Shown piece after piece: positions 36,561 to 63,112 of a stretch of DNA of 64,000 bases (its first letter is position 1; the number at the start of each line of letters is the position of its first letter). Source of the stretch: Geothrix sp. SG200. Its GTDB lineage: Bacteria > Acidobacteriota > Holophagae > Holophagales > Holophagaceae. The stretch is taken from contig NZ_JAKZFR010000001.1 of the NCBI RefSeq assembly GCF_022808935.1, positions 558,001 to 622,000 on the forward strand. The letters run 5' to 3'. The position numbers and the translations under genes were made by a program. The notes under the pieces are model-generated. The model did not search any database. It was given only the letters and a program-made list of their open reading frames with translations, and had not been told where the DNA came from.

Positions 36561-36627
<67 letters not shown>

Positions 36628-36647
<20 letters not shown>

Positions 36648-36887
36648 TCCGAGGGCCCCGACGGGGCCCTTCTCGTATCCGGTGGTCGGGCTCGAAATCG
36701 CGGATGGCGGCCAGGCTGACTCGGGGCCGACGCCCCTCGCACTTCGTGCCGCCAGCGGCTTCGCCGATGCGGTCCTATTCGCCTTTGGCGAATGGTGGCG
36801 CCGCCGGGAGCGCCGTGGCCAGCCAGCCGCGCGGCGGGAACCGGAGTCCGACCACCGGTACCATCCGAGGGCCCCGGCGGGGCCCTT
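36628..36887. repeat. tRNA-Leu(CAA) 3'-end unit: direct copy, inverted copy, direct copy
   Basis: The last 20 bases of the tRNA plus its terminator (36628-36671) recur at 36844-36887 with one mismatch in 44. Just after the first terminator, 36679-36696 carries an inverted near-copy of the T-arm/acceptor (CCGGTGGTCGGGCTCGAA). The 150 bases between inverted and second direct copies are rich in small hairpins (GCACTTCGTGC, GCGGCTTCGCCG, TTCGCCTTTGGCGAA). There is no coding potential. From 36888 to the hemerythrin start at 37059 nothing further is recognised. Confidence 0.85.
36653..36672 (+). terminator. Terminator of tRNA-Leu(CAA)
   Basis: GGGCCCC-GAC-GGGGCCC followed by TTCT, 6 bases past the CCA end. 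A second copy with a GGC loop sits at 36869-36888 in the duplicated unit. Confidence 0.8.
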
Positions 36888-37058
36888 TCCCAATTGCTGG
36901 CAGGGAATAGGTGGGAAATCACAATCTTCTTGATCTGGATGTCGTTGAAGACTACATTCACCTGGAAGTCCTCTGTGGAAAGATCCGTGTGGTGCATGCC
37001 CGCTCGCGTCGGCCTCTGTTCGGATCCCCAATCTGTCGCTGCGAAAAGGATCTGGCCC

Positions 37059-49188: not shown

Positions 49189-50337
49189 ATGACCAAGAGG
49201 ATCTTGTCCTCGCTGATGGCGTTCGGACTCGCCCTGCAGGCGCAGACGCCCGTGAAGATCGGCGTCATCAACTGCGCCACGGGCACCCAGGCGCCCATCG
49301 GCGAATACATGAGCAACGGCTACAAGCTGGCCATGGAGGATCTCCAGAAGAAGGGCATCAAGGTCGAGCTGGTCACCGAGGACGACACCGGCAAGCCCCA
49401 GGTCTCCATGTCGGCCATGGAAAAGCTGGTGACCCGCGACCGCGTGGCCGCCGTGGTGGGACCCTACAGCTCCGCCTGCGCCAACGCCGTGTCCAAGCTG
49501 GCCGAGAAGTACAGGGTGCCCCTCCTGGTGCCCGTGGCATCGAAAGAAGACATCACCCGGCAGAACCAGAAGTATGTCTTCCGCCTCAGCGCCACCACCG
49601 AGGACTACGCCTCCATCCTCATCTCCATGGCCCAGAAACTGGGCAAGCCCAAGACCATGGCCATCCTGAACGAGAACACCGACTTCGGCACCTCCGGCGC
49701 GAAGTCCGCCAAGGCCTACGCCGCCCAGGTGGGCATCCAGGTGGTGATGGAGGAGGCCTATGCCGCAGGCTCCCCCGACTACCGCTCCACCCTCGCCAAG
49801 GTCAAGGCGGCCAAGCCCGATCTCGTCTTCATGGTGTCCTACGTGGCCGACGGCATCCTGCTCATGCGCCAGGCGCGCGAGGTGGGCCTCCAGCCCCAGG
49901 CCTTCCTGGGCGCGGGCGCGGGCTTCGCGTCCTCCGAGTTCGCGCGGGAGCAGGCCATCTCCCACGGGGTGTTCTCCAGCACCCAGTGGACGACCGACGT
50001 GAACTGGCCTGGCGCCAAGGACTTCGGGGCGCGGTACAAGGCCAAGTTCGGCAAGGCCGAGGTGCCCTACCATGCCGCCAATGCCTATGCCTCGATGATG
50101 GTCATGGCGGAGACCGCCGCCAAGGTGGGCGGCGACCGCGAGAAGCTGCGCGCCGAGCTGCGCGGCGGCCACTGGGACGGCATCATGGGCGACGTCCGGT
50201 TCATCGACTACAGCGGCTACACGAACCAGAACAAGCACCAGATGCTGGTGGAGCAGATCCAGAACGGCAAGCACGAAACGGTGTGGCCCCCCCAGTACGC
50301 CACGAAGAAACCAATCTATCCATTCAAGTGGAAGTGA
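49189..50337 (+). CDS. Branched-chain amino-acid-type ABC transporter substrate-binding protein
   Basis: A 382-residue periplasmic-binding protein of the LivJ/LivK type I fold. It has a signal peptide (MTKRILSSLMAFGLALQA), PVKIGVINCATGTQAPIGEYMSNGYKLAMEDL, VAAVVGPYSSACANAVSKLAEKYRVPLLVPVAS and AILNENTDFGTSGAKSAKAYAAQ. It binds a small amino acid or related ligand in the periplasm. ATG 49189 follows GGAGGTG. The permease and ATPase genes are not adjacent, so it must work with a distant transporter or as a receptor. Confidence 0.93.
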   Translation: MTKRILSSLMAFGLALQAQTPVKIGVINCATGTQAPIGEYMSNGYKLAMEDLQKKGIKVELVTEDDTGKPQVSMSAMEKLVTRDRVAAVVGPYSSACANAVSKLAEKYRVPLLVPVASKEDITRQNQKYVFRLSATTEDYASILISMAQKLGKPKTMAILNENTDFGTSGAKSAKAYAAQVGIQVVMEEAYAAGSPDYRSTLAKVKAAKPDLVFMVSYVADGILLMRQAREVGLQPQAFLGAGAGFASSEFAREQAISHGVFSSTQWTTDVNWPGAKDFGARYKAKFGKAEVPYHAANAYASMMVMAETAAKVGGDREKLRAELRGGHWDGIMGDVRFIDYSGYTNQNKHQMLVEQIQNGKHETVWPPQYATKKPIYPFKWK

Positions 50338-50356
50338 CCGCCGCTTGAGGCGTCCC

Positions 50357-50412
50357 CAGAGCCTGTCGCACACCTCTTTCCACCGGTCCCAGGGAGTGTG
50401 TGACAGGCCCTG
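50357..50412. repeat. Short palindromic element with GGCCTGTCACAC ends
   Basis: CAGAGCCTGTCGCACAC (50357-50373) and the complement of GTGTGTGACAGGCCCTG (50396-50412) match at 15 of 17 positions around a 22-base spacer. It lies between the LivK-like gene and the TauE gene. The ends (AGGGCCTGT on one side) resemble the ends of the MITE at 30078, so it may be a remnant of the same transposon type; as a hairpin it could also end transcription of the LivK-like gene. Confidence 0.55.
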
Positions 50413-50435
50413 TGGCGCCTGTCATCTTGGGATGT

Positions 50436-51224
50436 ATGCACATCGGACACGCGCTCACCGTCATGGCCGCCGCCTTCGCCGCCGGCGCCATCAATTCCAT
50501 CGCGGGAGGCGGGACGCTGGTGTCCTTCCCCTCGCTGCTGGGCATCGGACTCACGGGCCAGCAGGCCAATGTGACGAGCACGCTGGCCCTCTGGCCGGGA
50601 TCCATCGGCGGGTTCTGGGGCCACCGCGAGGATCTGGTCGGCATCCGGGAATTCACCCTCCGGCTGATGCCGCCCTCCCTGCTGGGCGGCGCGCTGGGCG
50701 CCTGGCTCATGCTGGTCACGCCCCAGAAGGTCTTCGACAACCTCGTGCCCTGGCTGATCCTGGTGGCCACGATCCTGCTGGCGGCCAATGATCCCGTCAA
50801 CAAGCTCCTGAAGAAGATGGGAAGCCACGACCGCACGCCAGGCTGGTGGGTGTTCGCCATGATCTTCCAGTTCATCGTGGGCATCTACGGCGGCTACTTC
50901 GGCGCGGGTATCGGCATCCTCATGCTGGCGGCGCTGAGCCTCCTGGGCCTCACGGACATCCACCAGATGAACGGGCTGAAGAACCTGCTGGCCCTGTGCA
51001 TCAACGGCATCGCCATCTTCGCCTTCCTGGCGATGGAGTTCCTGCGGCACCCGGGCAACGTCCAGTGGACCCTGGTCGGCATCATGGCCGTCGCCGCGGG
51101 CCTGGGTGGTCTCTTCGGCTCCCACATGGCCCATCGTGTCGGCCGAAAGACCGTGCGCGTCGGCGTCGTGTCCATCGGCTTCATCCTCTCGGCCTGGTAC
51201 TTCTACAAGCACTACATGGCCTGA
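50436..51224 (+). CDS. TauE/SafE-family membrane transporter
   Basis: A 262-residue protein with about eight membrane helices and the paired TauE repeats: AAGAINSIAGGGTLVSFPSLLGIGL in the first half and GGYFGAGIGILMLAALSLLGL in the second. The family exports small sulfur-containing or organic acid anions; the substrate here is unknown. ATG 50436 is used, with GGGA upstream. Its last 13 bases overlap the convergent mobB gene. Confidence 0.88.
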   Translation: MHIGHALTVMAAAFAAGAINSIAGGGTLVSFPSLLGIGLTGQQANVTSTLALWPGSIGGFWGHREDLVGIREFTLRLMPPSLLGGALGAWLMLVTPQKVFDNLVPWLILVATILLAANDPVNKLLKKMGSHDRTPGWWVFAMIFQFIVGIYGGYFGAGIGILMLAALSLLGLTDIHQMNGLKNLLALCINGIAIFAFLAMEFLRHPGNVQWTLVGIMAVAAGLGGLFGSHMAHRVGRKTVRVGVVSIGFILSAWYFYKHYMA

Positions 51225-51727
51225 GGAGGCGTCCGCAGGCCCGTGTGGGCGAGGATGAACTCGGCGACCGCGGACGGATCGTTCAGGTCCAGCACCGGGA
51301 TCCTCAGCCCGGGCAACGGGCGGTCGCTGGCCACGGCCACGATTCCTGGATCCTCGGGGCAGAGCAGGGGCTTGCCTTCGGACTCCCGGTGGATCTCCAG
51401 CTTGGGGTGCAAGTGGGTCTTGAAGCCCTCGATGAGGAGCAGGTCCACGGGCGTCATGCGCTCGATCAGGGACTCGATGCTGGGCTCGGGCTCGTCCCTG
51501 GATTCGTGCATCAGCACCCAGCGCGAGGAGGTCACCACCAGCACCTCCGAGGCGCCGGCCTCCCGGTGCCGGAACGAGTCCTTTCCCGGCTTGTCCACGT
51601 CGAAGCGGTGGTGCGCGTGCTTCATGGTCGAGACCTTCAGCCCGGACTTCCTGAGAAGCGGCAGCACCTCGACCACCAGGCTGGTCTTCCCGCTGCCGCT
51701 CCAGCCGACGATGCCCATGACCTTCAT
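51212..51727 (-). CDS. mobB: Molybdopterin-guanine dinucleotide biosynthesis adaptor MobB
   Basis: A 171-residue GTPase-like protein with P-loop GWSGSGKTSLVVEVLPLLRKSGL, TMKHAHHRFDVDKPGKDSFRHREAGA and LLLIEGFK, all MobB features. It assists MobA in attaching GMP to molybdopterin for molybdoenzymes. ATG 51727 follows GGAGGG at a good distance; an upstream in-frame ATG (51748) is possible but lacks a ribosome site. mobA and molybdoenzyme genes are not in the window. It overlaps the convergent TauE gene by 13 bp. Confidence 0.9.
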   Translation of the reverse strand: MKVMGIVGWSGSGKTSLVVEVLPLLRKSGLKVSTMKHAHHRFDVDKPGKDSFRHREAGASEVLVVTSSRWVLMHESRDEPEPSIESLIERMTPVDLLLIEGFKTHLHPKLEIHRESEGKPLLCPEDPGIVAVASDRPLPGLRIPVLDLNDPSAVAEFILAHTGLRTPPQAM

Positions 51728-51843
51728 GGCGAGGCCCTCCGGTTCCATGATGGCGCGTTCGAGGTGGGGGATTCTGTGAATTCGGATCCCCCACGCTCCG
51801 CCGCATATGCGCGCCCCACCGGAGGTGGAGGCGGAACGATTCT

Positions 51844-51987
51844 GGGGGATCCGCTCCGGGGCCACCACTGTGCGGCGTCCCCTCCGGCCGCACGAATCGC
51901 TGGCACGGCCCTGACCGCCTCCGGCTGTCCACTGGACAGCCTCCGGCGGGGCCTACCTGCCAGCGATTCTGTGACTTCGAATCCCCC
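51844..51987 (-). repeat. tRNA-Ser-associated repeat unit, copy 1
   Basis: A 144-bp unit bounded by GGGGGAT (left) and GAATCCCCC (right), which copy the T-arm of the neighbouring tRNA-Ser. Conserved arms GAATCGCTGGCA (51894-51905) and TGCCAGCGATTC (51958-51969) enclose an inner hairpin GGCTGTCC-ACT-GGACAGCC. It differs from copy 2 at about five positions. It is non-coding. A further decayed T-arm/acceptor copy begins at 51781, so the repeat period is 195-196 bp. Confidence 0.85.
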
Positions 51988-52039
51988 ACGCTCCGCCAAA
52001 AAACGTGCGCCCCGCCGTAGGGCGAGGTGGGACGATCCT

Positions 52040-52183
52040 GGGGGATTCCCTCCGGGGCCACCGCTGTGCGGCGTCCCCTCCGGCCGCACGAATCGCTGGC
52101 ACGGCCCTGATCGCCTCCGGCTGTCCACTGGACAGCCTCCGGCGGGGCCTACCTGCCAGCGATTCTGTGACTTCGAATCCCCC
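52040..52183 (-). repeat. tRNA-Ser-associated repeat unit, copy 2
   Basis: A 144-bp unit nearly identical to copy 1, with arms at 52090-52101 and 52154-52165. Its right end continues into TTCGAATCCCCCACTCTCCGCCA (52172 onward), a perfect inverted copy of the 3' end of tRNA-Ser(GGA) that faces the real tRNA end across the terminator hairpin. Between copies 1 and 2 a decayed terminator (A-run, then GCGCCCCGC) is still visible at 51997-52015. Confidence 0.9.
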
Positions 52184-52193
52184 ACTCTCCGCC

Positions 52194-52223
52194 AAAAAAC
52201 GTGCGCCCCGCTTCGCGGGGCGC
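52194..52223 (-). terminator. Terminator of tRNA-Ser(GGA)
   Basis: On the minus strand GCGCCCCGC-GAA-GCGGGGCGC is a perfect 9-bp stem followed by ACG and TTTTTT, 3 bases past the tRNA CCA. Confidence 0.9.
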
Positions 52224-52226
52224 TTC

Positions 52227-52317
52227 TGGCGGAGAGTGGGGGATTCGAACCCCCGAACGGCTTTTGACCGTTACACGATTTCCAATCGTGCTCCTTCAGC
52301 CACTCGGACAACTCTCC
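52227..52317 (-). tRNA. tRNA-Ser (anticodon GGA)
   Basis: Class II tRNA of 91 nt including an encoded CCA on the minus strand. The acceptor GGAGAGT pairs with ACTCTCC, discriminator G follows, the anticodon stem CACGA/TCGTG encloses TTGGAAA with anticodon GGA, a long variable arm (TAACGGTCAAAAGCCGTTC) is present, and the T-arm is GGGGGTTCGAATCCCCC. Confidence 0.95.
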
Positions 52318-52393
52318 CGTGGCTCCGCTGATGGGCGGAAGCAGCAAGGTTATCATGGCCCCCGGCTTGAGCCAAGGGCCATGAATGGCCGGG

Positions 52394-53842
52394 TTACACG
52401 GTCTCGAGGACGGCGACGAGCAGCTTCCAGAAGTTGCCCACGGAAGGCACGCTCACGTGCTCGTCGGGGGTATGGACGTCCCACATGCTGGGGCCGAAGG
52501 ACACCATCTCCATCTCGGTGTACTTCTCGCCGATGAGGCCGCACTCCAGGCCGGCGTGGATGGCCATGATCTCCAGGGGCTTGCCGAAGACCTTCTGGTT
52601 GGTCTCGTTGACGATCTTCACCAGCGAGGCCTTGGGTTCGGGCTTCCAGCCCGGGTAGCCGCCGGTGACGTGGGACTCGAAGCCGCCCAGGGCGCAGGTG
52701 GCCGCGATGCGCTCGGAGAGGGCGGTTTTCGACGCGTTGATGGAGCTGCGGGTGAGGAGGTTCACTTCCACCTCGTTCTCGCGGGTCTCGATCACGCCCA
52801 TGTTGGTGGAGGTCTGGACGAGGCCGGGGATGTCCGGGCTCATGGCCTCGACGCCGTGGGGCAGGGCCAGCAGTAGGCGGATCAGGGCCTCGGTGTCGGC
52901 GCTGGACATGGCCTGGGTGCCTTCCCCGGCTTCGAGGGCCAGGTGCAGGCCCGGGTCGAAGGCGCCGAGAGCCGCCCGCCAGTGGGCCTCGTGGGCCGCC
53001 AGAGCGGTCCTGAAGGCCTGCTCCTGGGCAGGATCCAGGAAGATCTGGGCCGAGGCTTCGCGGGGAATGGCGTTGCGCTTGTTGCCGCCCTTGATGCCGG
53101 CCAGGGCGAAGCTGAAGTCCGCCTTCAGGGCGCCCAGGATCTGGGCGAGGATGCGGATGGCATTGCCGCGCCCGGCGTGGATGTCGATGCCCGAGTGGCC
53201 GCCCTTGAGGCCGAAGACCTTCAGGCGGTAGGCGCGGGCGCCCGCGGGCGGCGCCGTGCGGGTGAGCTTGCGGGTGGCGATGGTGTCCTCGCCGCCGGCG
53301 CAGCCGATGGTGAGGTAGCCCTCCTCCTCGCTGTCGAGGTTGAGGAGGTACTTGGCCTTGAGACGGCCGGGCTGGAGGCCGTTGGCGCCGGTCAGGCCCG
53401 TCTCTTCGTCGATGGTGATGAGGACTTCCAGGGGGCCGTGGGCGATGTCCTTGCTGGCGAGGACGGCCAGGGCGGCGCTCACGCCGATGCCGTTGTCGGC
53501 GCCGAGGGTGGTGCCGGTGGCGCGGAGGAGGTCGCCGTCACGGCGGACCTTGATGGGATCCTTGAGGAAGTCGTGGCCCGTGCCCTCGTTCTGCTCGCAG
53601 ACCATGTCCACATGGGCCTGGAGGCAGGTGGCGGGCCGGCCTTCCTTCCCGGGGGTGGCCTTCTTGCGGATGATGACGTTGCCGACCTCGTCGCGCTCCA
53701 CCTCGCAGCCCAGGGCCTTGGCCTGGTCGGCCACCCAGGCCGCGGCCGCGGCTTCGTTCTTGGATCCGCGGGGGATCTCCGACAGCCCCAGGAAGTAGGA
53801 CCAGATCGTCTTCGGTTCGAGGGATTCGAGCAACGCGTCCAC
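52394..53842 (-). CDS. pepD: Aminoacyl-histidine dipeptidase (PepD, M20C)
   Basis: A 482-residue cytoplasmic di-zinc peptidase of the M20C group. Metal-binding motifs are CLQAHVDMVCEQN (His/Asp near residue 78), TTLGADNGIGVSAAL (Asp near 115), TIDEETGLTGANGL (Glu pair near 145) and NLDSEEEGYLTIGCAGG (Asp near 172). It cleaves Xaa-His and other dipeptides. The start is GTG 53842 behind GGAGG. The gene is monocistronic, divergent from the RDD cluster across a 198-bp gap in which no clear site was identified. Confidence 0.95.
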   Translation of the reverse strand: MDALLESLEPKTIWSYFLGLSEIPRGSKNEAAAAAWVADQAKALGCEVERDEVGNVIIRKKATPGKEGRPATCLQAHVDMVCEQNEGTGHDFLKDPIKVRRDGDLLRATGTTLGADNGIGVSAALAVLASKDIAHGPLEVLITIDEETGLTGANGLQPGRLKAKYLLNLDSEEEGYLTIGCAGGEDTIATRKLTRTAPPAGARAYRLKVFGLKGGHSGIDIHAGRGNAIRILAQILGALKADFSFALAGIKGGNKRNAIPREASAQIFLDPAQEQAFRTALAAHEAHWRAALGAFDPGLHLALEAGEGTQAMSSADTEALIRLLLALPHGVEAMSPDIPGLVQTSTNMGVIETRENEVEVNLLTRSSINASKTALSERIAATCALGGFESHVTGGYPGWKPEPKASLVKIVNETNQKVFGKPLEIMAIHAGLECGLIGEKYTEMEMVSFGPSMWDVHTPDEHVSVPSVGNFWKLLVAVLETV

Positions 53843-54040
53843 AGAGCCTCCAAGGGGTGCCCACCCAGAGTACAGGTGGCCTCCACCGGTCCCCCGTGAC
53901 GGCGGTCACTTCACGGGCGCCTCCCTGGGCCGGCTCCGGATCGGAAAGGCCAGGCCGGATTCCGCGCAACACAGGCTGTTTTGGCAGGCGTTTGCCGGGG
54001 ATATTGGATAGCCTAAGGAATCCCTCCAAGCGAGCGCGCC

Positions 54041-54571
54041 ATGACCGAATTCAATCCGTACGAGGCTCCGTCCGCGGTCGTCGCGGATCTTGTCGATCCG
54101 GAAACCCAGGAGCTCGCCGACCGCGGCACGCGTCTCGGCGCCAAGCTCCTGGACGGCCTCATCATGGGCGGCGGATTCGCCGTCATCGGGATCCTGGCCG
54201 CCATCTTCATTCCCGCCTTCCTGTCCCGGCGAACCGGCGGTGCGCCCCCCACCGCGTTCTTCATCGTGTTCGCCGTGCTGGGGGGAGGCCTGCTCCTGGC
54301 CCTGATGATCTGGAACCTCATCTGGCTCAGCCGCTACGGGCAGACCATCGCCAAGCGCATCCTCCGCATCCGGATCGTCCGGAGCGATGGCGAGCCTGTG
54401 GGCATGGGACGGCTGCTGGGGCTGCGGATCATCCTCATGTGGGTGCTCGAGTCGATTCCCTTGCTGGGACCCTTGTTCTCGCTGGTCAACGCCTGCTTCA
54501 TCTTCCGGGATGACCGGCGCTGCATCCACGACCTCATCGCCGACACGATCGTGGTCAAGGTGGCCGACTAG
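54041..54571 (+). CDS. RDD-family membrane protein
   Basis: A 176-residue protein with a polar N-terminus and an RDD domain: RGTRLGAKLLDGLIMGG (Arg/Asp signature), two or three helices, GQTIAKRILRIRIVRSDGEPVGMGRLLGLRI and a final DDRRCIHDLIADTIVV. RDD proteins are small membrane proteins, some linked to ion transport, but this one's role is unknown. It starts a same-strand block of seven genes and stops two bases before the second RDD gene. Confidence 0.85.
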   Translation: MTEFNPYEAPSAVVADLVDPETQELADRGTRLGAKLLDGLIMGGGFAVIGILAAIFIPAFLSRRTGGAPPTAFFIVFAVLGGGLLLALMIWNLIWLSRYGQTIAKRILRIRIVRSDGEPVGMGRLLGLRIILMWVLESIPLLGPLFSLVNACFIFRDDRRCIHDLIADTIVVKVAD

Positions 54572-54573
54572 CC

Positions 54574-55260
54574 TTGCCGCCCGTCGACACCGTCCGGACC
54601 ATCGAGACACCCGAGGGCATCGAGCTGCACCTCCGTCCGGCGGGCCCTGTGGCCCGCTTCTGGGCCTTTTTCGTGGACCAGGCCGTGGTGTGGATGGGCC
54701 TGATGTTCGCCGGGATCGCCCTCGCCTTCCTGGGGCCGCTGGGGCTGGGGCTCTGGTTCATCCTGGTCTTCCTGGCCCAGTGGCTCTACCCGGTCTTCTT
54801 CGAGGTCCTGGGGGGCGGCCGCACCCTCGGCAAGCGCTGGCTGAACCTGCGGGTCCTGCGGACGGATGGGCGTCCCATCGGCTGGGGGCCCAGCCTCATC
54901 CGGAACCTGCTGCGGGTCGTGGACGGCCTGCCTGGGGCCTACACGGTCGGCCTGGTGAGCATCCTCCTCACACGGGACTTCCAGCGCATCGGCGACATCG
55001 TGGCCGGCACCCTCGTGGTGCACGAGGAGGCCGGCGCCCAGGCCCCGGTCCTTCCGGCGGCCGAGCCCCTGGCGCCCGCCCTGGCGCTCACCCTCGAGGA
55101 GCAGTCGGCGATCCTCGCGTTCGCCGAGCGGAGCGCGGGCCTGACGGCGTCCCGGAGCGAGGAGCTCGCGGACGTGCTGGGCCCCCTCACGGGCAGCCGG
55201 GGGGCGGGTGGCGTCAGGGCCGTGCTCGGCATGGCCCGCTACCTGTGGGGCGGCCGATGA
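54574..55260 (+). CDS. Second RDD-family membrane protein
   Basis: A 228-residue protein with an RDD domain (VARFWAFFVDQAVVWMGLMFAGI, LGGGRTLGKRWLNLRVLRTDGRPI, GDIVAGTLVVHEE) and a C-terminal cytoplasmic tail of about 80 residues. The only upstream start before the conserved region is TTG 54574, with AAGGTGG about 10 bases before it. Its end overlaps the SpoIIM gene by ATGA. The distinct C-terminal tail separates it from the preceding RDD paralogue. Confidence 0.8.
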   Translation: MPPVDTVRTIETPEGIELHLRPAGPVARFWAFFVDQAVVWMGLMFAGIALAFLGPLGLGLWFILVFLAQWLYPVFFEVLGGGRTLGKRWLNLRVLRTDGRPIGWGPSLIRNLLRVVDGLPGAYTVGLVSILLTRDFQRIGDIVAGTLVVHEEAGAQAPVLPAAEPLAPALALTLEEQSAILAFAERSAGLTASRSEELADVLGPLTGSRGAGGVRAVLGMARYLWGGR

Positions 55261-56204
55261 GGCAGCAGCGCTTCGAGCAGGAGAACCGGCCTCTCTGGGA
55301 GGATCTGCGAGGCTGGCTCGACGAGCGGGCCACCCTGGGCGCGGAGGAGGTTCCCTCGGCCTATCGCCGGCTCTGCCACCACCTGTCCGTGGCGCGGGAG
55401 CGCCAGTACAGCCCGGCCCTCGTCGAGCGGCTGCAGCAGCTCGCCCTCCGCCTCCACCAGCGGATCTACGGCGAGCGCGGCGAGGGGGTTCCGGCGGCGC
55501 TCCGCTTCCTCTGGGGCGAACTGCCCCGGCAGGTGCGGGCGGAGTGGCGGCTGGTGGCCGTGTCGAGCCTGCTGTTCTTCGGCCCCTGGATCGCGGCCTT
55601 CCTGGTCGTGCGGGCCCAGCCCAACCTCGTGCACCTGATGCTGAGCCCCGGTGAGGCGGCCAAGTACGTGCAGATGTACGATCCGAAAACCCCCGTCGCC
55701 GGCGCCATGGGCGCCACCCGCGACGTCATGATGTTCGGCTTCTACATCCTCAACAACATCGGCATCGACTTCCAGACCTTCGCCTCGGGGCTGCTGGCCG
55801 GAATCGGCCCCCTCTTCTTCCTGCCCTTCAACGGCCTCCACGGGGGCACGGTGATGGCCCACCTCACCAACCAGGGCCTGACCGCCACCTTCTACGGCTT
55901 CATCAGCGGCCACAGCTCCTTCGAGCTGATGGGGGCCGTGCTCAGCGGGGCGGGGGGCCTGCGGATGGGCTTCGCCCTGATGCATCCGGGGCGGCGGTCC
56001 CGCCTCGCGGCCTTGCGGGAGGGCGCCCGGCAGGGCTCCCGCCTCCTCTTCGGCGCCATCGCGCTCACCTTCCTGGCCGCCTGCTTCGAGGGGTTCTGGT
56101 CCGCGAACACCCTCGTGCCCTGGAAGGTCAAGGTGGGCGTGGGGATCCTGTTCTGGATCCTCCTCGCCTCGTGGTTCGTGCTGGCCGGGCGGAGGCACGA
56201 ATGA
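55257..56204 (+). CDS. SpoIIM-like (stage II sporulation protein M family) membrane protein
   Basis: A 315-residue protein with an N-terminal cytoplasmic helical part (about 1-105) and five or so helices in the C-terminal half, including NNIGIDFQTFASGLLAGIGPLFFLPFNGLHGG and the ISGHSSFELMGAVLSGAGGLRMG motif typical of the family. In non-sporulating bacteria SpoIIM homologues sit with MoxR/DUF58 genes and probably help assemble or protect the envelope; no spore genes are present here. ATGA overlaps link it to both neighbours. Confidence 0.9.
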   Translation: MRQQRFEQENRPLWEDLRGWLDERATLGAEEVPSAYRRLCHHLSVARERQYSPALVERLQQLALRLHQRIYGERGEGVPAALRFLWGELPRQVRAEWRLVAVSSLLFFGPWIAAFLVVRAQPNLVHLMLSPGEAAKYVQMYDPKTPVAGAMGATRDVMMFGFYILNNIGIDFQTFASGLLAGIGPLFFLPFNGLHGGTVMAHLTNQGLTATFYGFISGHSSFELMGAVLSGAGGLRMGFALMHPGRRSRLAALREGARQGSRLLFGAIALTFLAACFEGFWSANTLVPWKVKVGVGILFWILLASWFVLAGRRHE

Positions 56205-57805
56205 AGCCGGGCGCCATGGGCTTCATTCCCCGAACACGCGCCGCCATGGAGGCGGCGGATCTCGGCCTGAGCCTCCTCCAGGCCCACTGGCGGCCAGTGG
56301 CGAGGGTGTGGGGACTGCAGCTGGGCTTCCTCCTGGCGCTGCTCCTGCCCTTCCTGTACCAGACGCCCCTCTGGATCTTCGTGGTGCTCTGGTGGCTGAA
56401 ACCCTGGCTGGACCGGGGCGTCCTGTTCGTCCTCAGCCGGGCGGTGTTCGGCCAGCCCGCCTCCGTGTGGGACTTCCTGGGGGAGTGGCGGAGCGTCCAC
56501 CGGCGGGGGCTGGTGGCGGGCCTGCTCTGGCGGCGCCTCTCGCCCATGCGCAGCTACGTCCTGCCCGTCTCCCAGCTGGAGGGGCTCCGGGGCGCCGGGT
56601 ACCGCCACCGGGCCCGGGTGCTCACCCGGAAGGGCGGCGGCACGGGCTTCCTCCTCACCTGCTCGGGCTGGGCCTTCACCCTCCTCACCGCGGTGGGGTT
56701 CATCGCCCTGCTCCAGGCCATGATGCCCGCGGGAAGCCGGGTGCAGGTGTGGGATGGGTTCAACAACCCGGGGCTGGGCTTCCAGTGGTTCCTGCTGGGC
56801 GTCGGACTGCTGGCGCTCACCCTGACGGAGCCCCTCTTCGTGGCGGGGGGCTTCGGCCTCTACCTCAACCGCCGGACCCACCTGGAGGGATGGGACCTGG
56901 AGCTGGCCTTCCGGCGTCTGGCCGCCCGCCTGGCCACTCCCCTGGCCCTGGCGCTGCTTCTGGCCTGGGCCTTGCCCCTGGCTGCCCAGGCGCCCATCCC
57001 GGAACCGGTCGCCCAGGCGCCGGCTCCCGAGGCGTCCGAAGCCGCGCCGCAGGCCACTCCGCAATCCGACCCGCCATCCGGGCCGCAACCAGCGCCCCGG
57101 CCGGCCGAAGGCCCGCTCCGACCCGACGATGAGGCGCACCGGCGGGCCCAGCGGATCCTCGAGCAGGATCCCGCCTTCAAGCACACGAAGGAGGTCCGCA
57201 CCCTGAGCTACGAGCCCACCGGCCGCGAACCCCGGTGGCTCCGGAGCCTCCTCGACTACTTCTTCGTGAAAGAAGAGCCGGCCCAGCCCGCGAAGCCCCA
57301 GAACCTCGATTTCCTGAAGCGCATGTGGGACCTGCTGGCGCTCGCGGGCAAGGTGGTGCTGGTGGGGGGCCTGCTCGCCTTCGTCCTCTGGCTGGTGTAC
57401 CGGTTTCGCCACAGGCTGGGCCTGCCCCTCGTCGAGGCGAAGGCCTGGGAGGCGCCCGAGGCCGTCGCCGGCCTGGACATCCGCCCCGAGAGCCTTCCGC
57501 CCGATGTGCCCGAAGCGGCCCGAAACCTGTTTCTCCGGGGTGAAGCCCGGGCGGCCCTGGCCCTTCTCTACCGGGGCGCCCTGGCCGAGCTCGTGCATCG
57601 CCGGGCCATGGAGATCCCCGCCAGCGCCACGGAAGGGGACTGCCTGAGGGCGGCCGAGGGCCACCTCGAGGAGGGCCCGGCAAGCGCGTTCCACCTGCTG
57701 ACCGCCACCTGGCAGCGGCTGGCCTACAAGAACGAAGCCCCGACCCGCGATGCGTTCGAGGCCCTCTGCGATGGCTGGCCCGCGGCCTTCGGGGGAAGGC
57801 CATGA
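56201..57805 (+). CDS. DUF4129-domain membrane protein
   Basis: A 534-residue protein with several membrane helices in the first 270 residues, an Ala/Pro-rich region (about 275-310), another helix near 390-410 (VVLVGGLLAFVLWLVYRF) and a C-terminal DUF4129 domain (LFLRGEARAALALLYRGALAELVHRR...TEGDCLRAAEGHL). It is a standard partner in MoxR/DUF58 clusters. ATG 56201 overlaps the upstream stop, and its stop overlaps the next ATG, so the unit is tightly coupled. Confidence 0.85.
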   Translation: MKPGAMGFIPRTRAAMEAADLGLSLLQAHWRPVARVWGLQLGFLLALLLPFLYQTPLWIFVVLWWLKPWLDRGVLFVLSRAVFGQPASVWDFLGEWRSVHRRGLVAGLLWRRLSPMRSYVLPVSQLEGLRGAGYRHRARVLTRKGGGTGFLLTCSGWAFTLLTAVGFIALLQAMMPAGSRVQVWDGFNNPGLGFQWFLLGVGLLALTLTEPLFVAGGFGLYLNRRTHLEGWDLELAFRRLAARLATPLALALLLAWALPLAAQAPIPEPVAQAPAPEASEAAPQATPQSDPPSGPQPAPRPAEGPLRPDDEAHRRAQRILEQDPAFKHTKEVRTLSYEPTGREPRWLRSLLDYFFVKEEPAQPAKPQNLDFLKRMWDLLALAGKVVLVGGLLAFVLWLVYRFRHRLGLPLVEAKAWEAPEAVAGLDIRPESLPPDVPEAARNLFLRGEARAALALLYRGALAELVHRRAMEIPASATEGDCLRAAEGHLEEGPASAFHLLTATWQRLAYKNEAPTRDAFEALCDGWPAAFGGRP

Positions 57806-58962
57806 AGGCGGCCGGCCGCGTCCTGCTCGGGCTCCTCGCGCTCCTGGTGGCCGGCGGGCTCGTCATCGCCTGGATGAGCCGCCATTCCTTCCGGCGCGTC
57901 CCGAAGGAGATCGAGGTGGGGCTCCGTGGAGAGGCCCTGGAGAATCCCACCCTGCTGCTCCAGACGTGGCTGGAGGCCGGGGGCAGGCCGGTGGTCCGCA
58001 AGGGCGGGGAGCTCCTGGCGTCCGAGCTGCCGGAACGTGGCGTGCTCATCCTCCTGCAGCTCAGCCAGCCCATGACCCCCGCGGAAATCGAGGCCGTGCT
58101 GGCCTGGGTCCAGCGCGGCGGGCACCTGCTGACCGATGGCACGGCCGGGCCCTTCAACGACGCCCGCGGCCTGGCGGCCTTCCACAAGGCCATCGGGGTC
58201 ACCCTCCGGGACGCGAGCCCCGACGGCCTCGATATCCTGGCGCCGGGCCAGCAGATCGGCACCGACACGTTCCACAAGGGCGAAGTGCCCTACCGGCTGC
58301 GGCGGACCGCCCGCTGGCGCCTGGTGCCTGATCACCCGGAGGCCTGGGACTACACCCTGGGCCATGAGGGCCAGTACGTGCTGCTCACGCGGGAGGAGGG
58401 CCAGGGACGCCTCTCCCTCACCCCGGACCTGAACTTCGTCTACCGGCGCTCTCTGGCAGACCTCGACCACGCCGCCTACCTGGAGCGGCTCCTCGCGCTC
58501 CAGCCGGGCCAGGGGACGGTGGTGGTCTGGTCCCGTCCCGTCGAGCTCTCCCTCTTTACCTGGCTGTGGTCCCACGCCAAGGAGCCCATGCTGGCCCTGC
58601 TCCTCCTGGTCGCAGCCTGGGCCTGGCGGGGCTGGCCGCGCTTCGGGCCGCTGCTGCCGGAGCCCCTGCCCCGGCGCCGCTCTCTGCTGGAGCATCTGGC
58701 CGCCAGCGCGCGGCTGGTGTGGCGGGGCGGGGCGGGTGAGGTCCTGGTGGCCCGGACCCGGGAGGCCCTCGTGAAGCAGGCGCAGCGGCGGAATCCCGCC
58801 TTCGGCTCCCTGGACCTCGGGGCGAAGGCCGAGTGGCTGGCCCAGGCCACGGGCGCCAATCCCGACGCCATCGGCGCCGCCCTCGATGACCGGCCCGGCG
58901 CCTCCACCCATCAGCTCGCCCAGGATCTGGTCACGCTCGAACGGCTCCGCCAGCGCCTCTGA
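57802..58962 (+). CDS. DUF4350-domain membrane protein
   Basis: A 386-residue protein with an N-terminal signal-anchor (GRVLLGLLALLVAGGLVIAW), a Rossmann-like DUF4350 region (about 45-240, with GVLILLQLSQPMTPAEIEAVLAWVQRGGHLLTDG) and a second helix near 260 followed by a cytoplasmic tail. DUF4350 proteins accompany DUF4129, MoxR and DUF58 genes; some resemble GldG-like ABC accessory proteins. Function unknown. A 31-bp gap separates it from the MoxR gene. Confidence 0.85.
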   Translation: MKAAGRVLLGLLALLVAGGLVIAWMSRHSFRRVPKEIEVGLRGEALENPTLLLQTWLEAGGRPVVRKGGELLASELPERGVLILLQLSQPMTPAEIEAVLAWVQRGGHLLTDGTAGPFNDARGLAAFHKAIGVTLRDASPDGLDILAPGQQIGTDTFHKGEVPYRLRRTARWRLVPDHPEAWDYTLGHEGQYVLLTREEGQGRLSLTPDLNFVYRRSLADLDHAAYLERLLALQPGQGTVVVWSRPVELSLFTWLWSHAKEPMLALLLLVAAWAWRGWPRFGPLLPEPLPRRRSLLEHLAASARLVWRGGAGEVLVARTREALVKQAQRRNPAFGSLDLGAKAEWLAQATGANPDAIGAALDDRPGASTHQLAQDLVTLERLRQRL

Positions 58963-58993
58963 ACCGCCTTCCCCTTCCATCCCAGGATTCCCC

Positions 58994-59983
58994 ATGACGA
59001 CGCCCTCCGCCTCCCCCGATCCCGCCCGCATTTCCTGGGCCGCCGAACAGACCGAAGCCCTCCGGACCGAGATCCACCGTGCCCTGGTCGGCCAGGGACC
59101 CGTGGTGGATCAGGTGCTGGCTGCCTTCCTCGCCGGCGGGCACGTCCTGTTGGAAGGTGTTCCCGGCCTGGGCAAGACGCTCCTGGTGAGAGCCCTGGCC
59201 ACGACCTTCCAGGGAGCCTTCGCGCGCATCCAGTTCACGCCGGACCTCATGCCGAGCGATGTGACCGGCCACGCCATGTGGGACATGAAGAGCGAGCAGT
59301 TCCACCTGCGGCGGGGACCAGTCTTCACGAACCTCCTCCTGGCGGACGAGGTGAACCGCGCCCCGGCCAAGACCCAGGCAGCCCTGCTGGAGGTCATGCA
59401 GGAGCAGCAAGTGAGCCTGGAGGGCCGCACCCTGCCCGTGGAGGCCCCCTTCATGGTGCTGGCGACACAGAATCCCATCGAGCAGGAGGGGACCTACCCG
59501 CTGCCCGAGGCCCAGCTGGACCGCTTCCTGCTCAAGGTCAGGATGGACTATCCGGAAGCCGGGGAAGAGGTCGCCCTGGTCCGCCAGGTCACCACCGGTG
59601 CGGTCGGCGACGCCCTCCGCGTGGATGGCGTGCGCCCGCTCATGGCGGCGGCCGAGGTGCTGGAGCTGCAGCGCCTGGCGGCCACGGTCCGCGTGGATGA
59701 CGCGGTCCTGGACTACGCGGTCCGCATCGTCAGGGCCACCCGGCAATGGCCGGGCATCGCCCTCGGCGCCGGTCCCCGCGGCGCCATCGCCCTGGTGCGC
59801 ACGGCCCGCGCCCAGGCCCTGCTCGAAGGCCGCGACTTCGCCACGCCGGACGACGTGAAGGCCATGGCGCTCCCGGCGCTCCGCCACCGCATCCAGCGCA
59901 GCCCCGAGACGGAGATCGAGGGGCTCGGCTCCGACGATCTCCTCCTGGCCCTCCTGGCCAAGGTCCCGGCCCCCCGCGCATGA
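58994..59983 (+). CDS. MoxR-family AAA+ ATPase
   Basis: A 329-residue AAA+ protein with Walker A GVPGLGKTLLVRAL near residue 57, LLLADEVNRAPAKTQAALLEVMQEQQV (Walker B plus MoxR signature), FMVLATQNPIEQEGTYPLPEAQLDRF (sensor 1) and a C-terminal lid. MoxR proteins act as chaperones that activate or insert cofactors into partner proteins through the DUF58 protein next door. ATG 58994 has AGGA upstream. It overlaps the DUF58 gene by 4 bp. Confidence 0.95.
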   Translation: MTTPSASPDPARISWAAEQTEALRTEIHRALVGQGPVVDQVLAAFLAGGHVLLEGVPGLGKTLLVRALATTFQGAFARIQFTPDLMPSDVTGHAMWDMKSEQFHLRRGPVFTNLLLADEVNRAPAKTQAALLEVMQEQQVSLEGRTLPVEAPFMVLATQNPIEQEGTYPLPEAQLDRFLLKVRMDYPEAGEEVALVRQVTTGAVGDALRVDGVRPLMAAAEVLELQRLAATVRVDDAVLDYAVRIVRATRQWPGIALGAGPRGAIALVRTARAQALLEGRDFATPDDVKAMALPALRHRIQRSPETEIEGLGSDDLLLALLAKVPAPRA

Positions 59984-61299
59984 TCCCCACCCTCCGCCTG
60001 CTGCGCCTGCTGGGCGCCTGGACCCTGCTGGGGCTGGCCGCCTCGGTGTGGGCGCGGGTGATGCCCGCGTGGCGGGCCGCCGGCTGGATCCTGCTCGCCG
60101 CCCTGTCCATCGACCTCATCCTCTCCCTCTGGCCCAAGGGACTGACCGGCGAGCGGGAGGTGCCCGGGAGCCTCGCCCTGGGCGAGTGGCGGGAGGTGCG
60201 GCTGCGGCTGCGGAATCCTTCTCCCTTCAGGCTCCAGGTCGAATGGTTCGATCATCACCCGTCAGATTTCGAAAGCCGGGGATTGCCCTCGCACCATGCG
60301 CTTCCGGCGCGCGGGTTCCTCGACCAGGCCTACCAGGTCCGTCCCGCCGCCCGCGGCCGCCGGAATTTCGGTCCCATCCAGGTGCGCGTCACCACCGGCC
60401 TGGGCCTCTGGGCGCGGACGCTGAAGCTGCCGGCCGCCTTCCCCGTGAAGGTGTTCCCGAACTTTGCCGCCGTGGCCCGATACGCGCTCCTGGCCACGGA
60501 CCAGCGGCTGTCCATGCTCGGCATCCTGAAGCGCCCCCGGCGCGGCGAAGGGCTGGATTTCCACCAGCTGCGGGAGTACCGCCAGGGCGACACCATCCGG
60601 CAGGTGGACTGGAAGGCCAGCGCCCGCAGCCGGAAGCTCATCTGCCGCGAGTACCAGGACGAGCGGGACCAGCAGGTGGTCTTCCTGCTGGACTGCGGGC
60701 GCCGCATGAGCCCGCTGGACCGCCTGGATGGCCGGGAGCTGGGGCACTTCGACCAGGCCCTCAACGCACTGTTCCTGCTGGGCTACGTGGCCCTCAAGCA
60801 GGGGGACGCGGTGGGCGTGGCCACCTTCGCGGAGGACCGTCCGCGCACCGTGGCGCCCCACAAGAGCCTCGCCACCCTCGAGCGGCTCTTCCAGGAACTC
60901 TTCGATGTGCAGCCCACCACCCATGCCCCGGACTACCTCGCGGCGGCCGAGACCTTCCTGCGCCAGTTCCGGAAGCGGAGCCTCGTCATCCTGCTGACCA
61001 ACCTCCGGGACGAGGAGGACGCCACCCTGCTGCCCGCCCTGGACCTCCTCCGCAGCCGCCACCTGGTGCTGCTCGCGAACCTCCGGGAAGGCGTGGTCGA
61101 CGAGTTCCTCTCCCAGCCCGTGACCGGCTTCGAGGCCGCCCTCGACCATGCGGTGGCCCACGACTACATGGCCCGGCGCGGAACGCTCTTCCAGCACGTC
61201 CTCCACGGCGGCACCCGCGTCCTGGACGTAACCCCCGCCAAGCTCCCCACCGCCCTCGTCAACCGCTACCTGGAACTGAAGGCTAGCGGCGCGTTCTGA
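59980..61299 (+). CDS. DUF58-domain membrane protein (vWA-like)
   Basis: A 439-residue protein with two N-terminal membrane segments (about 8-25 and 30-48), a beta-rich central part and the DUF58 hallmark GLDFHQLREYRQGDTIRQVDWKASARSRKLICREYQDERDQQVVFLLDCGRRM. The vWA-like C-terminal domain (VVFLLDCGRRMSPLDR) is incomplete as a MIDAS. It is the usual partner of MoxR. It ends 28 bp before a tRNA-Ser 3' fragment that marks the left end of an integrated element. Confidence 0.9.
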   Translation: MIPTLRLLRLLGAWTLLGLAASVWARVMPAWRAAGWILLAALSIDLILSLWPKGLTGEREVPGSLALGEWREVRLRLRNPSPFRLQVEWFDHHPSDFESRGLPSHHALPARGFLDQAYQVRPAARGRRNFGPIQVRVTTGLGLWARTLKLPAAFPVKVFPNFAAVARYALLATDQRLSMLGILKRPRRGEGLDFHQLREYRQGDTIRQVDWKASARSRKLICREYQDERDQQVVFLLDCGRRMSPLDRLDGRELGHFDQALNALFLLGYVALKQGDAVGVATFAEDRPRTVAPHKSLATLERLFQELFDVQPTTHAPDYLAAAETFLRQFRKRSLVILLTNLRDEEDATLLPALDLLRSRHLVLLANLREGVVDEFLSQPVTGFEAALDHAVAHDYMARRGTLFQHVLHGGTRVLDVTPAKLPTALVNRYLELKASGAF

Positions 61300-61326
61300 G
61301 ATCAGAGGAGCTTCGGCAGCGGTTCT

Positions 61327-61354
61327 GCGGGTTCGAATCCCTCTCTCTCCGCCA
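61327..61354 (+). other. tRNA-Ser 3' fragment, probable attachment site of integrated element
   Basis: GCGGGTTCGAATCCCTC followed by TCTCTCCGCCA reproduces the T-arm, acceptor strand, discriminator and CCA of a tRNA-Ser. The 5' acceptor strand (GGAGAGA) and anticodon arm are missing upstream, where the DUF58 gene ends. A GAAGCCGCC-GAAA-GGCGGCTTC terminator-like hairpin follows (61357-61378). With a tyrosine integrase 411 bp away this is best read as an att remnant, a displaced core of an integrated element. Confidence 0.65.
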
Positions 61355-61395
61355 CTGAAGCCGCCGAAAGGCGGCTTCTCCGTGGCGGGGAGAGA

Positions 61396-61535
61396 GCGAT
61401 TCGAAGTCACTGAATCGCTGGCAGGTAGCCGTAGGCCTCGACAGCCCGGGGGGCTGTCGAGGCCGTAAAGCGGCGTGCCAGCGATTCGTGCGGCCGGAGG
61501 GGACACGGCGCAGCCGTGGCCCCGGAGGGAATCCC
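61396..61535 (+). repeat. tRNA-Ser-associated repeat unit, copy 3
   Basis: A 140-bp unit related to the 144-bp units at 51844 and 52040. Arms GAATCGCTGGCA (61412-61423) and TGCCAGCGATTC (61476-61487) are identical, but the inner hairpin is different: GGCCTCGACAGCCC pairs with GGGCTGTCGAGGCC. Upstream (61383-61405) lies an inverted copy of the adjacent tRNA-Ser fragment. The region 61536-61640 holds one more GTTCGGCGGA...TCCGCCGAAC palindrome; nothing coding is seen between 61300 and 61765. Confidence 0.85.
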
Positions 61536-61693
61536 GGAGCTTGATTCATCTCGCCGTTCGGCGGAGCACGATCAGGCGGCGGAGAGAGAGTCCGCCGAAC
61601 CAATACTCCACGGGATTCCACTGGGTTCAACCTAGGATTAGGCAATTGAAGCAAAAAATGTAGTTTCATCAAAAATAATTCTACAAAGTCCCA

Positions 61694-61722
61694 TTGCGTT
61701 CCGTCCCAGCCGGACCTATTGT
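61694..61722 (+). promoter_or_regulatory. Candidate promoter of the integrase gene
   Basis: TTGCGT (61694-61699) and TATTGT (61717-61722) are separated by 17 bases in an AT-richer region 44 bp before the integrase ATG. Two ATGGGTAT direct repeats overlap and follow the -10 (61724 onward) and may be an operator. Confidence 0.35.
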
Positions 61723-61765
61723 ATGGGTATAGGCATGGGTATGCACCCTGATTTGGAGAGCCGAC

Positions 61766-63112
61766 ATGGGGCGTGGAAGAGATCTCCTCAGTGCCGTCGA
61801 GGTGGCCAATTCAAAGCTGAAGCCTTCGCAGAAGAGGCGGTATCTGGTTGATGGCGGCGGTCTGTACCTGATGATCACTCGCAGGGCTCAGGGGAGCGCA
61901 GACAAGAAGGCGAGAACACCCGCCAATCAGGTCTCTAAGAGTTGGTGCTTCCGGTATCGGAGCCGAGTCACAAAAAAGCCCGTTGAGCTTGGTCTAGGGC
62001 CCCTTGCTGATGTGCCCATGGCTAGGGCCAGGGTGAAGGCCGCCGAGCTGCGTGGAATGCTCGCCGAGGGTATTGATCCAAAGACGGAGATCGAGAAAAA
62101 GCGGGCGGGGCTGAAGGCCGAGGCCGCGAAGGTCATGACATTCGACCAGGCGACAAAGGGGTGTATCCAGGACCGGAAGGGTGGATGGAAGAACGAGAAA
62201 CACCTAGCCCAGTGGGAGAACACCCTTGAGACCTATGCGAGCCCCGTCATCGGACCGCTGGACGTGGCCATCATCGACCTCGCGCTGGTGAAGAAGGTGC
62301 TGGATCCGATCTGGACCACAAAGCCGGAAACCGCGTCTAGAGTCCGCCAGCGAATCGAGGCCGTGTTGGCCTGGGCCACCGTTCATGGCCGCCGGAAAGG
62401 CCCCAACCCGGCCCAGTGGAAGAACAATCTGGATCAGATCCTTCCCCCAACTTCAAAGGTGAAGAAGAAGAAGAATCATCCTGCGCTTCCCTACCAGCAG
62501 ATTGGCGCATTCACGGCTGAATTGAGGACTCAGCACGGGGCGGGCGCTAAGGCTTTGGAGTTCCTCATCCTTACGGCCTCAAGGACCAACGAAACCCTTG
62601 GAGCCGATCCGAAGGAGTTCAACCTCGACCGCGCTATCTGGACAATCCCGGCGGAGCGCATGAAGGCGGAGAAGGAGCACACGGTTCCCCTCTGCCCCCG
62701 GGCGGTGGAGATCGTGAGGGGCCTTATCAGCGAAAGGCACAACCGAATCTTCTGCAATTCTGATGGTGAGGCGCTCTCGGACGCGGTGATGCTGCGAGTC
62801 ATCTGGCGCATGAATCAGAAGAGGGCCGCCGAAGGGAAAGATGCCTGGCAGGACTCAAAGGGACAGAAGGCTGTGCCCCATGGGTTCAGGTCAACTTTCC
62901 GTGATTGGGCTGGCGAGTGCTCCAACTTCCCAAGGGAGGTCATCGAAAATGCCCTTGCCCACCAGTTGAAGGACAAAGCCGAGGCCGCGTACTCGCGTGG
63001 CACACAGCTGGCGAAGCGGAAGTTGCTCATGAATTCGTGGGCAGCCTACTGTGCCAAGCCAAGCGAGCCGCAATCTGAAAACGTCATCCCGATCCGTGCT
63101 GAGGTCGGATAA
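61766..63112 (+). CDS. P4-type tyrosine integrase
   Basis: A 448-residue phage/island integrase with an N-terminal arm-binding DUF4102-like domain (RRYLVDGGGLYLMIT), a core-binding domain (about 115-225) and a catalytic domain with Arg in TASRTNETLG near residue 275, HGFRSTFRDW near 374-377, His in ALAHQLKD and the nucleophile Tyr in AAYSRGT near 410. It catalyses site-specific recombination, probably at the tRNA-Ser 3' end. ATG 61766 follows GGAG. Base composition is lower in GC than the chromosome to the left, in keeping with transfer. Confidence 0.95.
   Translation: MGRGRDLLSAVEVANSKLKPSQKRRYLVDGGGLYLMITRRAQGSADKKARTPANQVSKSWCFRYRSRVTKKPVELGLGPLADVPMARARVKAAELRGMLAEGIDPKTEIEKKRAGLKAEAAKVMTFDQATKGCIQDRKGGWKNEKHLAQWENTLETYASPVIGPLDVAIIDLALVKKVLDPIWTTKPETASRVRQRIEAVLAWATVHGRRKGPNPAQWKNNLDQILPPTSKVKKKKNHPALPYQQIGAFTAELRTQHGAGAKALEFLILTASRTNETLGADPKEFNLDRAIWTIPAERMKAEKEHTVPLCPRAVEIVRGLISERHNRIFCNSDGEALSDAVMLRVIWRMNQKRAAEGKDAWQDSKGQKAVPHGFRSTFRDWAGECSNFPREVIENALAHQLKDKAEAAYSRGTQLAKRKLLMNSWAAYCAKPSEPQSENVIPIRAEVG

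Follow-up and report, generated by a model that had tools for sequence, protein, structure and literature searches.

Structured repeat units behind tRNA and tmRNA genes of Holophagaceae, with ends that mirror the host gene

Results

An array behind tRNA-Ser(GGA)

The stretch of DNA considered in this study (the window) comprises 64,000 nucleotides of the genome of Geothrix sp. SG200, and the features discussed here are collected in Table 1. Along the minus strand, the gene encoding tRNA-Ser(GGA) is followed by an intrinsic terminator, an inverted copy of the 3' end of the tRNA, a body, a decayed direct piece of the T arm, and a decayed terminator, after which come a second inverted copy, a second body, and a third inverted copy. 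An earlier reading, made from the letters alone (the sequence-only reading), had given this order of parts as far as the second body, and it is borne out by the repeat and terminator scans. The first inverted copy is a 23-nt perfect complement of the tRNA 3' end, which it matches from the T loop up to and including the last A of CCA. The 23-bp perfect palindrome previously described around the terminator is indeed present, as the perfect 23-nt core of two 26-nt arms (52172-52197 and 52224-52249) that are 96% complementary overall. The period had been put at 195-196 bp, in agreement with the spacing of the inverted copies (195 and 196 nt), and the two units, each 196 nt long, share 94% identity. 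The description of the array therefore stands, except that three inverted copies rather than two surround the two bodies and that the far edge lies at about 51770 rather than at 51781. When treated as single-stranded DNA, the segment comprising the tRNA end, the terminator, and the inverted copy has a folding z-score of -10.9. A scan of the locus found no promoter-like site.

Table 1. Features of the units within the window. Coordinates are those of the window.
Feature	Position	Strand	Basis
tRNA-Ser(GGA), host gene of the array	52227-52317	-	ARAGORN
Proximal intrinsic terminator between tRNA-Ser(GGA) and first unit; 9-bp stem (52223-52203) and T run	52196-52225	-	terminator scan
Inverted copy 1 of tRNA-Ser(GGA) 3' end	52172-52194	-	inverted repeat; own-end test
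Unit 1, three-way-junction body (type A) and T-arm part of helix P1	52042-52181	-	model R1, 158 bits; fold z; covariation
Remnants of a direct tRNA acceptor end and of a second terminator, both decayed (terminator 52024-52008)	52008-52041	-	repeat register; terminator scan
Inverted copy 2 of tRNA-Ser(GGA) 3' end	51976-51998	-	inverted repeat
Unit 2, three-way-junction body (type A)	51846-51985	-	model R1, 144 bits
Inverted copy 3, end of array	51781-51802	-	inverted repeat
Related unit behind tRNA-Leu(CAA)	36648-36890	+	tRNA call; own-end test; repeat search
Unit behind detached tRNA-Ser 3' end	61330-61601	+	genome search; model R1

Two further units lie in the window. The first follows tRNA-Leu(CAA) (36561-36647) and consists of a terminator, an inverted Leu end (about 36675-36696), a body, a direct Leu end (about 36844-36863), and a second terminator. 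A foreign repeat (about 36717-36808) is nested within its body, and similar pieces are found in many contigs of related genomes. The second follows the detached 3' end of a tRNA-Ser gene (61330-61353), has its three-way junction at 61396-61535, and adjoins an integrase gene (start at about 61766) whose sequence reads like those of the DUF4102 type. An intact tRNA-Ser(CGA) (G000:C1:633227-633313) lies 14 kb from the detached end, on the opposite strand, and the history of this island perhaps included an inversion at inverted copies of the tRNA end.

Distribution and placement of the units

To refer to the body found in the tRNA-Ser(GGA) array I will use the term type A, and the covariance model R1 was built on it. 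The model matches 57 of 77 genomes of Holophagaceae, representing 9 of 11 genera. In an even sample of Acidobacteriota it matches 31 of the 39 Holophagaceae genomes, and it matches none of the 357 Acidobacteriota genomes sampled from outside the family. When about 85,000 species were scanned for a sequence pattern, matches came only from Geothrix, from Holophagaceae, and from one metagenome-assembled genome assigned to Acidobacteria. The unit family is restricted to Holophagaceae, Geothrix included. Nearly all near-complete Geothrix genomes carry at least one copy according to the model, and a search within the genus found copies in 36 of 37 genomes (the genome studied among them), a few of these being short matches to the T arm only. 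No copy was found in collections of plasmids, phages, and viruses, the viral scan having used one exact pattern.

Type A units lie directly 3' of their host genes and on the same strand, and the hosts comprise tRNAs for Ser, Leu, Cys, Phe, Gln, Glu, Gly, Asn, and His as well as tmRNA. All nine matches of the model in the genome studied are linked to tRNAs (Ser-GGA twice, Ser-GCT twice, Ser-TGA, Cys, Gln, Glu-CTC, and the detached Ser 3' end), and only one of the nine is near an integrase. A tRNA on the same strand is found no more than 1.2 kb upstream of 69 of 91 type A units. For the other 22, inspection of some showed a position at the end of a contig, a tmRNA or a detached tRNA 3' end ahead of the unit, or a run of N alongside. 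The placement behind tmRNA comes from direct reading of two loci, L088 and L063. At L022 and L277 the unit follows a 3' fragment of a tRNA without the rest of the gene, and the first of these appears, on a reading of its sequence, to adjoin a DUF4102-type integrase reading frame. The unit at L276 follows the 3' end of tRNA-Asn beside a run of N. In genera other than Geothrix, units are found behind Asn, His, Glu, Gly, Ser, and Arg tRNAs. The suggestion of an element linked to tRNAs, made when only the one locus was in view, accords with these results on two counts: there are further copies, both in the same genome and across Holophagaceae, and nearly all copies that can be placed follow a tRNA or tmRNA gene.

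Ends that match the host RNA

Each copy opens with an inverted copy of the 3' end of its own host. In the genome studied, 16 of the 47 tRNAs called, about a third of the tRNA genes, are followed within 130 nt by an inverted copy of their own end, and for 14 of these 16 copies no tRNA for another amino acid fits as well as the own one. Genome G032 has such copies behind 10 of 49 tRNAs, with the own tRNA giving the best fit in 9 of the 10. A larger collection of 247 distinct flanks contains 97 with an inverted copy, a proportion that does not estimate frequency, since the loci were chosen in part for carrying units, a choice that leaves specificity unaffected. The own end surpasses those of all other amino acid families in 94 of these 97 cases, as compared to a single flank of 247 that attains the score when the ends are shuffled. 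The inverted end belongs, as had been supposed, to the local tRNA.

Amongst isoacceptors of tRNA-Ser, the own variant was the best match in 27 cases, tied in 17, and beaten in 10, the last explained mostly by G-U wobbles, as judged by eye, and for the remainder by small deletions. Three species with differing tRNA-Glu ends have inverted copies that track each of them (L060, L277, and L280). The same holds for tmRNA: at L088 a T loop of TTCAA is accompanied by TTGAA in the inverted copy, and at L063 one of TTCGA is accompanied by TCGAA.

Classes of bodies and evidence for a conserved fold

A unit combines the inverted 3' end of the host with a three-way-junction body and with that same 3' end in direct orientation, either whole or as its T-arm part, often together with a second terminator. 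In type A, the inverted copy ends in the T loop and is followed by GTCAC and then by the three-way junction. In type B, found behind Arg, Pro, Thr, Asp, Met, and similar tRNAs, the inverted copy extends over the whole T arm and is followed by GCGAGTGG and by hairpins with CTAGATG or CTTGATG loops. Inverted and direct ends are both present in the units behind tRNA-Val(GAC) as well. A third, shorter form of body (GGTGGAATTGCCGCTGCGGGCAGGTAG...) alternates with type A behind the tmRNA of L063, where it lies on the 5' side of the type A unit. At L116, ARAGORN calls a tRNA-Asp antisense to the type B unit behind tRNA-Arg(CCG), which looks like a false call arising from the inverted T arm.

When 55 type A units were aligned and folded by RNAalifold, the result was a helix P1, formed by the inverted copy with the direct copy, a long helix P2, and a short helix P3. 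Changes on both sides are seen in 31 of the 44 pairs. Paired cells make up 94.9% of the alignment positions concerned, as compared to 78.4% in shuffled alignments and less than 50% when the pairing partner is slid, and the covariation score is 0.434, a value attained by none of 500 shuffles (0.155). Kinship amongst the genomes inflates such counts, yet the slid controls, which retain the kinship, stay at about 0.09. The fold z-scores of unit RNA are -6.2 (the tRNA-Ser(GGA) array) and -8.1. With compensatory changes that exceed both the shuffled and the slid controls, the family behaves as a conserved structured RNA would.

The two strands of such a fold may be distinguished by the pairs G-U and A-C. 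Read in the sense of the tRNA, the body helices contain 70 G-U against 19 A-C (33 against 16 without one column rich in G-U), and the distal hairpin and P3 taken together contain 34 against 6. There is no G-U excess in the base helix of P2 (6 against 12), where the register is uncertain. The predominance of G-U over A-C in the tRNA sense implies that this single strand is likely to be the folded molecule under selection.

Comparison with known families

Of the 4227 Rfam models run against positions 50000-63000, only tRNA passes its gathering score. Matches to sX4 and to several microRNA families over the palindrome fall below theirs and are probably due to the tRNA with its hairpin.

The rtT repeats of the tyrT locus of E. 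coli are tandem units of less than 200 bp behind a tRNA gene, each of which repeats the tRNA 3' end, and the Geothrix array shares this plan. The rtT repeats are known only from behind one tRNA and only with direct copies. The Geothrix units, in contrast, have inverted copies, many tRNA hosts in addition to tmRNA, and host-specific ends. No homology to rtT was detected: the model RF00391 exceeds its cut-off in none of 12 Geothrix genomes, though it does so in the E. coli control, and the Rfam scan has no rtT match in its stretch of the window. An internal tandem G-A motif, described in rtT (PMC8250186), is a further point of likeness, and rtT RNA is reported to be a by-product of the tyrT tRNA operon (cited in PMC2965389).

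A second likeness is to the small RNAs RrA, RrB, and RrF of E. coli rrn operons, which lie between dual terminators and are produced by read-through (PMC8144298). In both cases a short RNA gene, predicted in Geothrix, is situated between two terminators behind the gene of a stable RNA. The rrn RNAs, however, sit behind rRNA and lack repeats of tRNA ends, and the read-through that has been demonstrated for them would have to be supposed for Geothrix.

The units are short, non-coding, rich in hairpins, and present in multiple copies, as are REP, BIME, and REPIN sequences, but unlike those sequences they are fixed behind tRNA and tmRNA genes and their ends vary with the host gene. The Y1 transposase associated with such repeats (PF01797, RAYT) is absent from 9 of 12 genomes, including the one studied, and of 12 unit-bearing genomes 9 likewise lack reverse transcriptase (PF00078). 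Mobilisation by RAYT and a retroelement primed by tRNA were set aside because most carriers are without the enzyme. Two genomes possess multiple Y1 transposase genes whose scores are high and identical (G070 in 5 places and G019 in 7), and most of their relatives have none.

Inverted terminal sequences flanking a non-coding body call to mind MITEs. The flanks showed host-matched ends (the same 94 of 97) in place of the fixed terminal inverted repeats of a MITE. As regards target-site duplications of the MITE kind, the observations are that the direct repeats at the edges of units consist of tRNA end and terminator and that the copies are not scattered. Integrative elements borne by tRNA genes are similar in having a direct repeat of the tRNA 3' end on both sides, whereas the units are about 195 bp in length, contain no gene, include an inverted copy, and differ in their ends between loci of a single genome. 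The opinion in the sequence-only reading that the combination matches no MITE, att scar, or REP has thus survived the tests of ends, integrase, and Y1 transposase. A search of the literature, largely of freely available papers, found no published account of such units. As an arrangement they stand apart from the classes checked; if rtT is counted as the same kind, they would be a variant of the rtT kind.

Gain, loss, and decay of units

For 50 units, the nearest relative outside the unit's own array was determined. It lies behind the same type of tRNA in another genome in 27 cases and at a different locus in 23, so units are inherited vertically in part and also move between loci, although the apparent movement could in part be differential loss. 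The unit behind tRNA-Phe is present in G000, G025, G007, G063, G017, and G008 and missing from others, and it is flanked on both sides by direct repeats of about 45 bp comprising the tRNA end and terminator. The tRNA-Phe flank of G024 and the tRNA-Ser(TGA) flank at L098 hold solo remnants of the inverted end with no body, as would fit deletion between direct repeats.

The outer parts of the two tRNA-end copies were compared in 54 first units. Only the inverted copy is intact in 15 and only the direct copy in 23 (Fisher p = 0.004 for exclusivity, uncorrected for kinship). Both are intact in only 4, and the acceptor part of P1 is thus often unclosed. Inversion as the source of this exclusive decay was rejected, since the bodies hold one orientation in both states.

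Discussion

I propose, tentatively, that the unit is a structured RNA gene of a family that sits behind the tRNA terminator, is transcribed by read-through, and is possibly trimmed as tRNAs are. Some transcription of the host gene would pass the first terminator, and in the resulting RNA the inverted copy would pair with the downstream direct copy to form P1. Where the direct copy is whole, the compact RNA closed by P1 would end as a tRNA acceptor stem does, with CCA, and the enzymes that process tRNA could free it as a small RNA whose amount would track the synthesis of the tRNA. Tandem units may have multiplied through recombination between direct copies of the tRNA end and may occasionally shift between tRNA loci. 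The ends would stay matched to the host through selection for pairing, through hairpin-templated repair, in which one strand of the hairpin is copied from its partner strand, or through both.

What argues for an RNA gene is the placement on the strand of the host, the covariation, the excess of G-U, the match to the host's own end, and the presence in nearly all near-complete Geothrix genomes, and on these grounds I hold it possible though well short of assured. The nearest precedents would be the RNAs between the dual terminators of rrn operons (PMC8144298) and rtT RNA (cited in PMC2965389). With a terminator ahead of the units and no promoter-like site at tRNA-Ser(GGA), the output of RNA may be low or nil. 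Equilibrium folding of the tRNA together with its unit adds a complication: at all 13 loci folded, the tRNA end pairs with the inverted copy and the cloverleaf is broken, so the order of folding or processing would matter, and on the proposed path the tRNA would have to fold first. The often unclosed acceptor part of P1 and the missing G-U excess in the base helix of P2, where the register is uncertain, also count against the proposal.

A more unusual and unlikely reading is that the unit acts on its host tRNA or tmRNA by means of an address, at most 23 nt long and complementary to that RNA from the T loop through CCA, which a conserved scaffold presents. A class of RNAs programmed by tRNA in this way could, for example, capture or mark incompletely processed tRNA, with the address rewritten for each new host gene.

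Two rivals are serious: a selfish element that uses tRNA ends, and maintenance of the ends by hairpin-templated repair. The first, which I consider rather unlikely, supposes an element without proteins that integrates at the 3' ends of tRNA and tmRNA genes, probably by means of the tyrosine integrases of islands. The direct copies of the tRNA end would then be attachment-site repeats and the folded body would be recognised by the recombinase. The 3' ends of tRNA and tmRNA genes are classic targets of integrases, and the direct repeats of tRNA end and terminator around units, the presence or absence of a unit at one locus amongst related species, the 23 of 50 units with nearest relatives at different tRNA loci, and the two orphans that adjoin an integrase gene (61330-61601 and L022) all agree with such an element. 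However, the sites of a single integrase share a fixed core, and the ends of units match more than ten different RNAs. Nor do the plasmids, phages, and viral contigs searched (the last with the one exact pattern) offer a copy, and Y1 transposase and reverse transcriptase are each lacking in 9 of 12 genomes. Finally, those integrase-side orphans that were examined still follow a tRNA 3' end, and it is therefore probable that the island moved the array rather than the reverse.

The second serious rival makes the units a functionless by-product of DNA metabolism: template switching at the terminator hairpin would copy the tRNA end backwards, tandem duplication would follow, and hairpin-templated repair would maintain the match. 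That the tRNA end, terminator, and inverted copy form one near-perfect hairpin speaks for this account, as do the inverted copies that are often intact where the direct copy has decayed and the solo inverted remnant that empty sites may retain (G024 tRNA-Phe and L098 tRNA-Ser(TGA)). I regard it as improbable, for it leaves unexplained the homologous body common to several loci, the compensatory changes in P2 and P3 far from the tRNA copy, and the confinement to one bacterial family.

It is more doubtful still that the inverted copies and repeated terminators serve as a reinforced stop that shields downstream genes from read-through of the tRNA. The terminators do repeat along with the units, and the whole palindrome folds very stably, but a simple terminator suffices elsewhere, many tRNAs in carrier genomes have no unit, and the conserved three-way junction would be superfluous. 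Least probable of all, to the point that I give it scant credence, are decoy attachment sites, arrays of tRNA ends that draw islands and so spare the true tRNA: the island by the unit at 61330-61601 does end near an inverted tRNA-end copy (61578-61601), but this is a single candidate case, and the conserved body would again be superfluous.

Whichever explanation applies, Holophagaceae, bacteria of soil and sediment, possess a family of repeats whose ends are rewritten to mirror the tRNA or tmRNA that hosts them, and which fails the tests of the repeat classes checked. In the genome studied, roughly one tRNA gene in three is a host, and in several species of the family so is the tmRNA gene. The question raised is whether the matching of ends is kept by selection for RNA pairing or by repair of DNA templated by the hairpin, and since cultured strains, such as Geothrix fermentans, carry units, it is open to testing. 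If the RNA is made, then these bacteria would have a layer of RNA coupled to tRNA that reaches up to one third of the tRNA genes of a genome.
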